Source: an uncultured Pelagibacteraceae bacterium (GTDB lineage Bacteria; Pseudomonadota; Alphaproteobacteria; Pelagibacterales; Pelagibacteraceae). Taken from it: a DNA stretch of 64,000 nucleotides. The notes beneath the pieces were generated by a model. It did not search any database, had not been told where the DNA came from, and was given only the letters and a program-made list of their open reading frames with translations. The translations under genes were made by a program, and so were the position numbers. The stretch is taken from contig CACIDF010000002.1 of NCBI GenBank assembly GCA_902585365.1, forward strand, positions 60,746 through 124,745. Direction: 5' to 3'. Shown in pieces: positions 26,076-45,634 of the stretch (position 1 is its first letter; each line of letters starts with the position of its first letter).

Positions 26076-26501
26076 ATGACAGATACAATAGAGCAAAAAT
26101 GTTTGGCAAAAGGTGTAAAATTAACTGATCAAAGAAAAACTATTGCCAGAGTTATATCTGAGTCTAAAAAAAATTATGGTGAGTCAGATCACCCGGATGT
26201 TGATGAACTTTATAAAAGAGTTTCCGACATAGATAGCAAGATAAGTATTGCAACAGTTTATAGAACAGTAAAATTATTTGAAGAGTCTGGTATTTTAATG
26301 AAACATGATTTTAAAGACGGAAAAGCAAGATATGAGCTTAATGATGATCATAATCATTTAATAGATATAAAAACTGGAAATATAATCGAATTTACTAGTG
26401 ATGAAATTGAAATTATTCAAAAAAAAATAGCAGAAAAACATGGATATAAGTTAGTTGACTCAAAACTTGAACTTTACTGTATTAAAGATAAATCTGATTA
26501 A
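26076..26501 (+). CDS. fur: Fur family metalloregulator
   Basis: CLAKGVKLTDQRKTIARVI, HPDVDELYKRV, ISIATVYRTVKLFEESGI. Confidence 0.92.
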   Translation: MTDTIEQKCLAKGVKLTDQRKTIARVISESKKNYGESDHPDVDELYKRVSDIDSKISIATVYRTVKLFEESGILMKHDFKDGKARYELNDDHNHLIDIKTGNIIEFTSDEIEIIQKKIAEKHGYKLVDSKLELYCIKDKSD

Positions 26502-39800: not shown

Positions 39801-41012
39801 TTAAACCTTTTCAAATACTAAAGTGGCATTAGTTCCACCAAAACCAAAACTGTTAGACATTACAGAATTTAAATTAACATCTTTTTCAACTTTAGTTACT
39901 ATTGGGTAATTTTTTGCTTCATCGTCCATATCCTGAATATTTGCAGATGCAGCAATAAACTTATTTTTCATCATTATTAAACTATATACTGCTTCATGAA
40001 CTGAGGTTGCACCTAAAGAGTGACCAGCTAATGATTTTGTTGAGCTTATTTTTGGTTTGTAATCTTTAAAAGCCTCTCCAACTGCTTTTAATTCCGTTAT
40101 ATCTCCAACTGGAGTAGACGTTCCGTGAGTATTTATATAATCGATTTTATTTTTTGTTGTGCTTAATGCCATCTGCATACATCTAACTGCTCCTTCACCT
40201 GATGGAGCAACCATATCATAACCATCCGATGTTGCACCATAGCCAGTTAATTCTGCATAAATTTTTGCACCTCTAGCTTTTGCATGTTCGTATTCTTCTA
40301 GAACCAAAACTCCACCTCCACCAGATATAACAAAACCATCTCTTGTTTTATCATAAGGTCTTGATGCTTTTTCAGGAGTATCGTTGTATTTAGAAGAAAG
40401 AGCAGTCATTGCATCAAACATAGCTGTCATTGCAAAATGCACTTCATCACTTCCACCAGCAAAAATTATTTTTTGTTTTCCTAATTGAATTATTTCCATT
40501 GCATTGCCAATACAATGGCCACTTGTTGCACATGCTGAACTGATTGTGTAATTAATTCCTTTAATTTTAAATGGTACAGCCAAGGTCGCTGATGCTGTAC
40601 TAGACATTGTTCTAGGAACAATAAACGGGCCCATCCGTTTAGGACTCTTTGCTCTAGTTTTGTCTGCTGCTAAAATAACATTTTCAATAGAAGGGCCACC
40701 AGATCCCATAATCATTCCAGTTGAAGTATTGCTTACATCTTTTTCTTCTAGGCCAGAGTCTTTTACTGCCTCTGCCATAGAAATATAATTATAAGCTGAC
40801 CCTGGTCCCATAAATCTTATAAATTTTCTATCTACATGATCTTCAAGATTAATATTTGGCTTACCATGCACGTGGCTCTTTAAATTATATTCTTTGTATT
40901 CTTCTGAAAAAGAAATTCCTGATTTTGAATTTAATAGTGATTGATAAACTTCCTCTTGATTGTTCCCTAAACAAGAAACAACCCCTATACCTGTTACAAC
41001 AACTCTTTTCAT
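39801..41012 (-). CDS. fabB: Beta-ketoacyl-ACP synthase I
   Basis: [57 protein letters not shown]. Confidence 0.94.
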
Positions 41013-41512
41013 TATTTAAATAAACCTACTTTTAAATTTTCTGTTGAGTAAATTTTTTTGCCATCTGCTAACAAAATTCCATTTGCTAAACCGACAGTAG
41101 TGCCTTCTTTTATAAGAACTCTTTTCATATTAATTTCATAAACTGCTTTTTTGACATTTTTAAGAACTTCACCGGTAAACTTTACTGTGTTAACTCCTAG
41201 AGCTCTTCCTCTTCCAGGATTTCCTAACCATCCCAAATAAAATCCTACAAGCTGCCACATGGCATCTAATCCAAGACATCCTGGCATTACAGGATCTTTT
41301 TTGAAATGACAGTCAAAAAACCATAGACTATCTTTTATATCCAATTCAGCAACAATAAATCCTTTGCCAAATTCACCTTTGTTTTCACTAATTTCTGTAA
41401 TTCTATCAAACATTAACATTGGAGGTGCAGGCAGTTTTGCGTTTCCTGGACCGAAAAGATCACCATTAGCACAACTGATTAAATCGTTGTAAGTGTATGA
41501 GCTTTTTTTCAT
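41012..41512 (-). CDS. fabA: 3-hydroxydecanoyl-ACP dehydratase/isomerase
   Basis: [37 protein letters not shown]. Confidence 0.96.
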
Positions 41513-41562
41513 TTTTCGGTATCCTTAATACTTGATTTAGCAAAAATATAATATAGATTTAG

Positions 41563-41580
41563 TTTAGAATAGTTATAAAT
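41563..41580. promoter_or_regulatory. Irr/PerR-box-like palindrome, copy 1 (upstream of irr)
   Basis: TTTAGAATAGTTATAAAT ending 4 nt before the irr start; related copies at 42018 and 42049. Confidence 0.6.
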
Positions 41581-41584
41581 TACT

Positions 41585-42004
41585 ATGTTAAATAATAGCC
41601 AATATATTGAAAAATTAAGAAGTTCAGGTTTAAGACCAACAAAACAAAGAATAAAAATTTGCGAAGTTCTGTTCAATTCAGAAAAGACTTTTCATTTTAC
41701 TATCAACGAACTTGTAAAAAGAATAAGTAAGTCAACAAACGACAAAATTTCACTTGCAACTGTTTATAACACAGTCCATGCATTTAAAAATAAAGGTTAT
41801 TTAAAAGAGATTCCAATTAATTCTGATCAAAGTTATTTTGATACCAATACGTCGCATCACCACCATTTCTATGACGAGACTCAGAAAGATTTAATTGATA
41901 TAGATGATGCAGATGTTGAGCCAGTTAAAATTAATACAAGAATTCCTGGAAAAAAAATCAAGTCAGTAGAAGTACTTGTTAAAGTCGAAGACGACAAATC
42001 TTAA
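41585..42004 (+). CDS. irr: Iron response regulator Irr (Fur superfamily)
   Basis: GLRPTKQRIKICEVLF, ISLATVYNTVHAFKNKGYL, YFDTNTSHHHHFYDE (His-rich motif typical of Irr); divergent from fabA. Confidence 0.85.
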   Translation: MLNNSQYIEKLRSSGLRPTKQRIKICEVLFNSEKTFHFTINELVKRISKSTNDKISLATVYNTVHAFKNKGYLKEIPINSDQSYFDTNTSHHHHFYDETQKDLIDIDDADVEPVKINTRIPGKKIKSVEVLVKVEDDKS

Positions 42005-42017
42005 TTCAATTTCTACA

Positions 42018-42033
42018 TTATAATAGTTCTAAA
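42018..42033. promoter_or_regulatory. Irr/PerR-box-like palindrome, copy 2 (upstream of katG -35)
   Basis: TTATAATAGTTCTAAA (reverse complement TTTAGAACTATTATAA). Confidence 0.6.
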
Positions 42034-42036
42034 CTG

Positions 42037-42066
42037 TTGACAAATTTATTTAGAATTATTATAAAA
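42037..42066 (+). promoter_or_regulatory. katG promoter TTGACA-N17-TATAAA with Irr-box-like copy 3 overlapping the -10
   Basis: TTGACA 42037-42042, TATAAA 42060-42065; box TTTAGAATTATTATAAAA 42049-42066. Confidence 0.65.
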
Positions 42067-42083: not shown

Positions 42084-44318
42084 ATGAGCACAGAGTTCAG
42101 AAATAAAGATTTTAAATATAAAGAATTAAGCAAATGCCCAGTAACAGGAGCAGGAACAACAGCTAAGTTTTCTGCAGGCAGAGGACAATCAAACAGAGAC
42201 TTTTGGCCAAATAGTTTAAATTTAAAGATATTAAGTCAGCATTCTAACCTGACTAATCCAATGGATAAAAAGTTTAATTATGCCAAGGAATTTAAAAAAT
42301 TAAATTACAAAGCCTTAAAAAGAGATTTAACAAAATTAATGACAGACTCGCAAGAATGGTGGCCAGCTGACTATGGTCATTACGGACCTTTTTTTATTAG
42401 ACTGGCTTGGCATGCGGCAGGTACTTATAGAACTGGTGATGGTAGAGGTGGAGCTGGAACAGGCAATCAAAGGTTTGCACCATTGAATGCTTGGCCAGAC
42501 AATGTCAATTTAGATAAAGCAAGATTGTTACTTTGGCCGATTAAACAAAAATATGGAAAACAAATTTCCTGGGCTGATTTATTTATTTTAGTTGGAAATG
42601 TTGCTTTAGAGTCAATGGGTTTTAAAACTTTTGGTTTTGGAGCAGGAAGAGTTGATATTTGGGAACCTGAGGATGATATTTACTGGGGATCTGAAAAGGA
42701 AATGTTAGGTGTTGAAAGATACAGTGGAAAAAGAGATTTAGAACAACCACTTGGAGCTTCACATATGGGATTAATTTATGTAAATCCTCAAGGTCCTGAT
42801 GCAAATCCTGACCCTCTTCTAGCTGCTCATGACATTAGAGAAACGTTTGGAAGAATGGCAATGAATGATTATGAGACTGTTGCTTTAGTTGCTGGAGGTC
42901 ATACATTTGGAAAATCACACGGAGCGGCATCCGAGTCTCATAAAGGTCCAGATCCAGAGGCATCAAGAATTCAAGATCAATCAACTGGGTGGAATAGTGA
43001 TTATAAATCAGGAAAAGGTGCTGATACTATAAGCAGTGGTATTGAAGGAGCATGGACACAGTCACCTATAAAATGGGACATGGGTTACTTTGATTGCTTA
43101 TTTAATCATGAATGGGAATTAACAAAAAGCCCAGCAGGAGCTCATCAGTGGACGCCAAAACAAAATGGCCAAAGAATTAAAATGGTACCTGATGCTCATG
43201 ATAAAAACAAAATGCATCCACCAATGATGCAAACAACAGATCTTTCTCTAAGGATGGATCCTTCTTATGGACCAATATCAAAACATTTTTACAACAACCC
43301 TAAAGAATTTGCAGATGCTTTTGCAAGAGCGTGGTTTAAATTAACTCATAGAGATATGGGTCCAAGAGCATGTTACTTAGGTAACGAGGTACCAAAAGAA
43401 GAGTTAATATGGCAAGATCCAGTAAAAAAAACAAAATATAAATTAAAGAAAAGTGATATTAAAACTCTTAGATCCAAAATATCTAAATCTAAATTGTCTG
43501 TAGCAGAGTTAGTAAGCACAGCTTGGGCATCAGCTTCAACTTACAGAGGATCAGATAAAAGAGGTGGAGCTAATGGAGCTAGAGTTTCATTAGAGCCGCA
43601 AATTAGTTGGGATGTTAATGATCCAAAACAGATTAATAAAGTTATCAAAACTTTAAAAAAAATTAAAAATAAATTCGATAATAAGAAAAAATCTGTTTCG
43701 TTAGCTGATTTAATAGTGCTTGGTGGAAACGTAGGCATTGAAATGGCAGCTAAGAAAGCAGGAGTAAATGTTGATGTGCCTTTTTACCCAGGAAGAGGAG
43801 ATGCTACACAAGAACAAACTGATATTCATTCATTTGGTCTTTTAGAGCCACAAGCTGATGGATTTAGAAATTATAATAAAGACGAGACATCTACAGTTTC
43901 AGCTGAGGAAAAGTTAATAGACAAAGCACAATTGATGGGTTTAACAGCTCCAGAAATGACAGTTCTTGTTGGTGGTATGAGAGTGCTAGATACTAATTTT
44001 GATCACTCAAAAAATGGAGTTTTTACTAAAAAGCCAGGGACTTTAACAAACGACTATTTTGTTAATCTTCTAGATATGAATACTACTTGGAAAGAAACAG
44101 ATAAATCTGAACAATTGTTTGTGGGAAAAGATAGAAAAACAAATAAAGTTAAGTGGCATGGTACTAGAGTAGACTTAATATTTGGTTCAAACTCGCAATT
44201 AAGAGCATTAGCCGAGGTTTATGCATGCAATGATTCATCTAAAAAATTTGTTAACGACTTTGTTTCAGCATGGACAAAAGTCATGAATTCTGACAGATTT
44301 GATCTGAAATTAAATTAA
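42084..44318 (+). CDS. katG: Catalase-peroxidase
   Basis: [55 protein letters not shown]. Confidence 0.98.
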
Positions 44319-44322
44319 TAAA

Positions 44323-44934
44323 ATGGAAACTGCAATTAATACACCAAAAGTAAGCTTTGAAGATTTCTACGAAGTACCTAATTTAAAATTTGATATTGAA
44401 AAACTTAGAGCTGATTTAGATAAAATTCTTGAAGAAAAAAAGTTTAATTCTCCAGGAGTTACACACTTTGGCGCAATACCTCTTAACCAGATACCTAATG
44501 ATGAAAATTCTATTAAAGGTAATAATATTAGAGGTAAATATTGGACTATAGCAGATGAGACAGGAAAAGAAGTTTCAAGAGACGTAGAAATTGAAGAGTC
44601 TAAATATACTAAACTTTTACCAGAATTTGAAAAAACATATTTTAAAGAAGTTTATGAAACTTTAAGTAAAAAGTTTAAGTTAGGAAGAGTAAGATTATTA
44701 TTAAAGGAACCAAGATCTACTTTAAGTTGGCACAAAGATCCAGAGTGCAGATTACATGTACCAATAATAACAAACCCAGGTTGTTCGATGGTAATCGAAA
44801 ACGTTGCAAAACATTTACCAGCTGATGGAAAGGTTTGGATAACAAATAACACTAAATACCATAATTTTTTTAATGGAGGGGAGCAAGCGAGAATACACCT
44901 AGTAGCGTGTGTATTAGACAGTCCATTTAAATAA
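44323..44934 (+). CDS. Aspartyl/asparaginyl beta-hydroxylase-like cupin dioxygenase
   Basis: LSWHKDPECRLHVPIITNPG (HxD), NGGEQARIHLVACVLD. Confidence 0.65.
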   Translation: METAINTPKVSFEDFYEVPNLKFDIEKLRADLDKILEEKKFNSPGVTHFGAIPLNQIPNDENSIKGNNIRGKYWTIADETGKEVSRDVEIEESKYTKLLPEFEKTYFKEVYETLSKKFKLGRVRLLLKEPRSTLSWHKDPECRLHVPIITNPGCSMVIENVAKHLPADGKVWITNNTKYHNFFNGGEQARIHLVACVLDSPFK

Positions 44935-45179
44935 TGACTGAATTTACCAAAGGCATATTTGAGGTAAGTAGAGACGTTTACAAAAATAACAAAGGCTCAA
45001 TATTAAGAACAATTGTATATACAATTGGTCACTTTGCAATTGCAATTACAGTATTGATGCTTGTGGCAGATGTATCTTTTATGATTGCCTTGACAGATGC
45101 AATTGTTGAACCAATAGCAAATTCAGTTTGGTACTTTGTTTTAGATAAGTGGTGGGCAAGTAAAAGTAAAAAGTCCTAG
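44934..45179 (+). CDS. DUF2061-like small membrane protein
   Basis: RTIVYTIGHFAIAITVLMLVADVSFMIALTDAIVEPIANSVWYFVLDKWW. Confidence 0.65.
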   Translation: MTEFTKGIFEVSRDVYKNNKGSILRTIVYTIGHFAIAITVLMLVADVSFMIALTDAIVEPIANSVWYFVLDKWWASKSKKS

Positions 45180-45634
45180 TTACCCCACAAATATTCATTA
45201 TTAATCCATCCCACATAGTTTCCAGTTTCCACTTTAAACCATTTTTTTTCTTCTTTTTTAACAATCAATAATCTACCACTTTTAATTACTGCTATTGGTG
45301 TTGAATATTTTGTAGAATTTTTAAAGAGTATTTTTTCCTGAAGTGTAATTAATGATTTGTTTTTTTTAAGCTGAGATCTATGAACCCATCCACCATTATT
45401 TTTGTAATCTAGAATTTTTCTAAAATTTTCCTTTTCATCAATTATTTCAACTGGAAAATTTTTTTTTAAGTATACAAATTTAATTGGGTAGTCTAACCCA
45501 GGACCATATCTTACATTTACCTTATTATATTTCAAAGAAAGAAAGTAATTTTCTTCTGCTTTTGTATCATTTAAAAAAATTAAAAAAAAAAATATAAATA
45601 TTATCCTAAACGTATTTATTACATTAAATCGCAT
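45176..45634 (-). CDS. Secreted SH3-domain protein
   Basis: Signal peptide; KVNVRYGPGLDYPIKFVYLKKNFPVEIIDE; GWVHRSQL; YVGWINNEYLWGN. Confidence 0.78.
   Translation of the reverse strand: MRFNVINTFRIIFIFFFLIFLNDTKAEENYFLSLKYNKVNVRYGPGLDYPIKFVYLKKNFPVEIIDEKENFRKILDYKNNGGWVHRSQLKKNKSLITLQEKILFKNSTKYSTPIAVIKSGRLLIVKKEEKKWFKVETGNYVGWINNEYLWGN

Follow-up and report, generated by a model that had tools for sequence, protein, structure and literature searches.

Irr-type boxes retained at an exchangeable peroxide-scavenger slot beside irr in SAR11 bacteria

The haem/iron regulator Irr releases DNA when haem binds at its HXH motif, and it activates or represses according to the position of its ICE box (PMC7762939). 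A second haem site differs among Irr proteins and is hence not defining (PMC7762939). In R. sphaeroides the only genes with a predicted Irr box are mbfA and ccpA, both with a role in oxidative defence, and irr mutants are resistant to H2O2 (PMC3413700). Irr of that species does not bind the catalase gene katE (PMC3413700), which we counted against reading katG as an Irr target. Irr boxes on oxidative-defence genes are known; what is distinctive in the locus described here is a slot whose gene is swapped. In the open-access literature, outside which most subscription journals lie, we found neither katG described as controlled by Irr nor the present SAR11 arrangement, and nothing that combines Pelagibacter, Irr and peroxide.

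No marine heterotrophs are more abundant than SAR11 bacteria, which possess few regulators. Catalase-peroxidase occurs in most offshore SAR11 genera (PMC12636525), and it bears on who pays for marine peroxide removal. We analysed a stretch of 64,000 nucleotides (the window) from an 897-kb, 73.7%-complete Pelagibacter (SAR11) MAG. The named genomes nearest to it are single-cell genomes and MAGs of Pelagibacteraceae. The minus strand carries a fab cluster, made of fabA and the next two genes; irr and katG lie on the plus strand. The region shared by the divergent fabA and irr contains the first of three similar palindromes, called boxes 1 to 3. The features are as follows.

41012-41512, minus strand: fabA, divergent neighbour of irr (TIGR01749, above cut-off)
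41525-41552, plus strand: predicted irr promoter, TTAATA-N16-TATAAT (10/12 consensus match; -10 at 41547-41552)
41563-41579, plus strand: box 1, TTTAGAATAGTTATAAA, putative Irr-type operator lying downstream of the predicted irr -10 and upstream of the irr ATG
41585-42004, plus strand: irr, Irr-type Fur-family regulator of 139 aa (PF01475; IrrA NF045678; 141 orthologues keep HXH and the PerR-type ligand residues)
42017-42033, minus strand: box 2, TTTAGAACTATTATAAT, putative Irr-type operator with 3 nt between its end and the katG -35
42037-42065, plus strand: katG promoter seen in the sequence, TTGACA-N17-TATAAA (TTGACA 42037-42042, TATAAA 42060-42065)
42049-42065, plus strand: box 3, TTTAGAATTATTATAAA, putative Irr-type operator that takes in the katG -10 and part of the promoter spacer
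42084-44318, plus strand: katG, intact catalase-peroxidase of 744 aa (TIGR00198, 1141.8 bits, above cut-off; RLAWH, GHTFG and other motifs)

The initial annotation had recognised three palindromes of one design, one just before the irr ATG and two around the -35 and -10 of the katG promoter, and its sequences and coordinates are correct. Only the distance from box 1 to the irr ATG (41585) needs amending, from 4 to 5 nt. Compared with TTTAGAANNNTTCTAAA, which we take to be the Irr/ICE consensus, boxes 1, 2 and 3 match 13, 12 and 13 of the 14 fixed positions; the third copy is indeed one position off. Since the boxes overlap -10 sequences, part of this match is promoter. A distance of 32 bp, or roughly three turns of the helix, separates the centres of boxes 2 and 3. 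A weak minus-strand promoter-like match for fabA (TTTATA-18-TATATT, 9/12, 41550-41579) has its -35 within box 1, so that fabA expression could also be touched by Irr there.

Downstream of katG (44323-45179) lie genes for a 203-aa Asp/Arg beta-hydroxylase-family protein, whose ATG is 5 nt past the katG stop, and for an 81-aa DUF2061 membrane protein. Because both recur beside katG in the 30 katG loci checked (30/30 for the first gene, up to 28/30 for the second), katG may form part of a three-gene cassette. Further on, 1.1 kb past katG, TCTAGAATTTTTCTAAA at 45408-45424 has one mismatch to the canonical Irr consensus; it falls inside a coding sequence (45176-45634, minus strand) and is probably a chance match.

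The genome-wide motif scan proposed by the initial annotation finds the strict motif not to be frequent at random AT-rich sites. The pattern TTTAGAAYNATTATAA occurs twice in the window against 0.007 expected from dinucleotide shuffles, and twice in the whole MAG, both times at the irr/katG locus, against 0.09 expected. With one mismatch allowed there are six genome sites, three of them boxes 1-3, and 12 for the reversed control pattern. A looser pattern, TTTAGAANNNTTNTAAA, was dropped as a statistic, its genome count (2 seen, 3.3 expected) not being significant. Because these search patterns were derived from the copies themselves, what tests them fairly and independently is whether other genomes conserve the boxes.

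We therefore compared 141 distinct irr loci of the genus. A box of at least 14/16 is found in 86% of irr upstream regions and in 84-100% of slot-gene promoters (those of the gene following irr), against about 1% of shuffles; at the threshold of at least 12/14, irr upstream regions carry one in 124/141 cases. Relatives also keep TACTTGATTTA and TATAATATA of the predicted irr promoter, and TTGAC is present in 138/141 slot-gene promoters. The box 3 position is occupied in 73 of the 81 katG promoters, 52 of which have box 3 alone and 21 both boxes 2 and 3. Box 2 stands at an identical offset from TTGAC in all 55 rubrerythrin promoters (36 with box 2 only, 19 also with box 3) and in 27/81 katG promoters. 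Column profiles anchored on the box or on the promoter show these elements conserved within diverged flanks. In the sister SAR11 family a near-canonical ICE precedes rubrerythrin at the same place, with the complete TTTAGAANNNTTCTAAA in two loci (L256, L265); a clear box at irr itself was not found in the loci of that family. Conservation of the boxes thus spans the genus and reaches sister genera.

Could they nevertheless be chance palindromes of AT-rich promoter DNA? The DNA has about 30% GC, boxes 1 and 3 lie within promoter regions, and the genome shows no enrichment of the loose motif. Against this stand the excess of the strict motif, positions fixed in more than 100 diverged loci, and box 2, which lies outside the promoter hexamers and keeps its place in every rubrerythrin locus. 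We regard a chance origin as extremely improbable.

What follows irr is less constant than the boxes. Among the 141 loci the next gene is katG in 83, rubrerythrin in 55 and peroxiredoxin in 3, with no exception wherever that gene is readable. No genome among 201 holds both katG (97 genomes) and rubrerythrin (61); the corresponding P of about 1e-23 is overstated, since genomes share ancestry. On the Irr tree, built from few columns and with many forks unresolved, about 11 slot-gene swaps are needed, at least 4 (katG) and 6 (rubrerythrin) being forced by strongly supported branches, and the boxes persist through the swaps. This exchange of katG, rubrerythrin or peroxiredoxin, a pattern that the initial annotation had not noticed, suggests a peroxide-defence module more than a circuit for katG alone.

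The slot extends beyond the genus: of 30 loci in seven further SAR11 genera, 16 have katG next to irr and 11 have rubrerythrin, while in the remaining 3 neither gene was detected. The module seems absent from some SAR11 lineages; a convincing irr was not found in the near-complete genomes G201 and G207 (genus g2), G209 (g3) and G340 (g4), of other SAR11 genera. A plausible history is that an Irr-controlled rubrerythrin was ancestral, and that katG and peroxiredoxin came later behind the same operators. Five loci (L040, L045, L049, L051, L055) carry, behind the irr-linked rubrerythrin, the gene of a cysteine-rich Fe-S-type protein (MSKEGS...CHGCRRCFNLCDSFP...) that may serve rubrerythrin as redox partner.

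The regulator has a Fur-family fold (PF01475, 78.8 bits against a cut-off of 23.1). Its best NCBIfam model is IrrA NF045678 with 132.1 bits (cut-off 150), followed by Irr with 120.5 (cut-off 170); this score below the curated cut-offs counts against the module proposed here. Competing families score far lower, PerR at 60 and Fur at 43 bits, and the PerR models stay far short of their cut-offs (PerRB 60.4 of 250, PerRA 57 of 200). The HXH motif, H92-H93-H94, is at least 97% conserved in the 141 orthologues. The Cys-Pro haem-regulatory motif of the B. japonicum type is absent from the protein, its only cysteine, C26, not standing before a proline; the four-cysteine structural zinc site is absent as well. 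On alignment to B. subtilis PerR (2fe3), whose regulatory metal ligands we take to be H37, D85, H91, H93 and D104, all five are matched, by H37, D86, H92, H94 and D105. These residues are conserved in the 141 orthologues; they also occur in other Fur-family proteins and are not diagnostic alone.

A Fur/Mur-like paralogue is encoded in the window at 26076-26501, and Fur-family boxes look alike, so the boxes might be operators of this or another Fur-family protein instead of Irr. That they are placed at irr and at the gene next to it argues otherwise, as does the full canonical ICE at the same place in the sister family. Where the locus is present, genomes carry 1.55 (katG) or 1.71 (rubrerythrin) boxes each; assemblies with neither irr nor slot gene, most of which do have a Fur-like match, carry 0.26, equal to the reversed-pattern control, a comparison that is partly circular as the boxes reside at the irr locus itself. 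Another Fur-family owner of the boxes appears quite unlikely.

No OxyR above the family cut-off was found in 19 SAR11 genomes, of which 18 have a completeness of 90% or more (best 60 bits against 329). The sole LysR-type regulator found in the MAG was considered as OxyR and rejected. With OxyR missing at this threshold, Irr may stand in for OxyR/PerR in SAR11. The conservation, across the group, of boxes between irr and a swappable scavenger gene suggests that Irr runs SAR11 peroxide defence.

We propose that the locus is probably an autoregulated Irr peroxide-defence module, in which Irr represses a swappable scavenger gene. Irr bound to box 1, immediately downstream of where irr transcription begins, would limit its own synthesis; on box 3, over the -10, and aided by box 2 beside the -35, it would repress katG. 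We infer this repression from the positions of boxes 1 and 3. Inactivation of Irr, by haem at the conserved HXH, by oxidation or by both, would then release katG and irr. The gene after irr is an exchangeable slot, filled by katG, rubrerythrin or peroxiredoxin according to the SAR11 lineage and placed behind the same boxes. Of the claim of the initial annotation that Irr regulates both itself and katG, the architecture stands: Irr-type boxes occur at irr and at the katG promoter, in a fitting arrangement conserved in the genus and in sister genera, and regulation by Irr is what they would predict.

The direction of control is less certain at some promoters. In the 36 of 55 rubrerythrin promoters that have box 2 only, beside the -35, activation is as possible as repression. 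At such promoters at least, Irr might thus activate the slot gene through box 2, with box 3 adding repression: the position-dependent action of Irr cited above allows it, the centre of box 2 lies about 47 nt upstream of the estimated start, and in strain HTCC1062 rubrerythrin is up 1.57-fold under iron limitation (PMC2864753). That change is small, however, and in katG promoters the repressing place over the -10 is the one usually occupied, in most cases without box 2. Activation through box 2 is a minority possibility in our estimate.

The same strain bears on the signal. The HTCC1062 rubrerythrin, SAR11_0399, likely occupies the slot, judging from our census. A classical haem/iron-sparing circuit would have apo-Irr shut off the iron-costly KatG (haem) and rubrerythrin (di-iron) in scarcity, peroxide being no direct signal. 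It accords with the described behaviour of Irr, with the conserved HXH, and with KatG and rubrerythrin being a haem and an iron enzyme. Yet the rise of rubrerythrin in HTCC1062 speaks against its simple repression by apo-Irr at low iron, and irr itself is not chiefly iron-responsive there (PMC2864753). The three loci with an iron-free peroxiredoxin in the slot argue against a purely iron-sparing role.

So does a further peroxiredoxin, remote from irr, that is boxed in other lineages. Among 40 remote strict-motif sites examined across the genus, 11 belong to one promoter family, that of a 1-Cys-type peroxiredoxin (L356, L365-L367, L369, L371, L377, L378, L383, L384, L393). Few of the others recur, and in genome pairs only; many lie inside coding sequence. 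Iron-uptake genes do not recur among the 40, which also speaks against iron sparing. At least 12/14 positions are matched in 29 of 61 distinct promoters of the remote peroxiredoxin, against 4% of mononucleotide shuffles, a share somewhat raised because the 61 include the discovery sites. Depending on the genome, its divergent partner is a metallo-beta-lactamase-fold gene or a sulfide:quinone-reductase-like gene, a hint of shared control of peroxide and sulfide/persulfide. In the window genome this peroxiredoxin has no box (10/14, equal to background), which leaves irr and katG as the only recognisable targets.

The initial annotation suggested an intact heme/iron/peroxide switch; taken on its own, the sequence would fit haem/iron sensing and peroxide sensing alike. 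We consider the classical iron-sparing circuit a real contender, if less probable than its negation. Somewhat more tentative still is the idea that SAR11 Irr is a direct H2O2 sensor at its PerR-like metal site, rather than chiefly a haem/iron sensor, controlling a repeatedly swapped slot with retained operators. For the proposed repression module, either signal could serve. A conserved Irr switch on katG would link iron, haem and peroxide, and would predict when SAR11 turns catalase on. Operators kept while the target enzyme is repeatedly swapped make a clear case of regulatory-module evolution.

Three described systems resemble this one. OxyR-katG regulation in E. coli and rhizobia likewise places katG under a regulator against peroxide; it differs by its regulator, for which the SAR11 genomes searched gave no match above cut-off. 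The PerR regulons of the Bacillus subtilis type share a Fur-family protein beside a catalase/peroxidase gene, peroxide-scavenger targets and the five aligned ligands, whereas SAR11 Irr has one cysteine, lacks the four-cysteine zinc site and scores far under the PerR cut-offs. Closest are the Irr/ICE regulons of Rhizobiales and Rhodobacterales, with a Fur-family Irr carrying HXH, a near-identical palindrome, a box over or near the promoter and oxidative-defence targets. In SAR11, by contrast, one box arm is usually TTATAAA and not TTCTAAA, and no wider iron regulon is recognisable among the strict-motif sites; irr is linked to its target, and katG, rubrerythrin and peroxiredoxin share one swappable slot.
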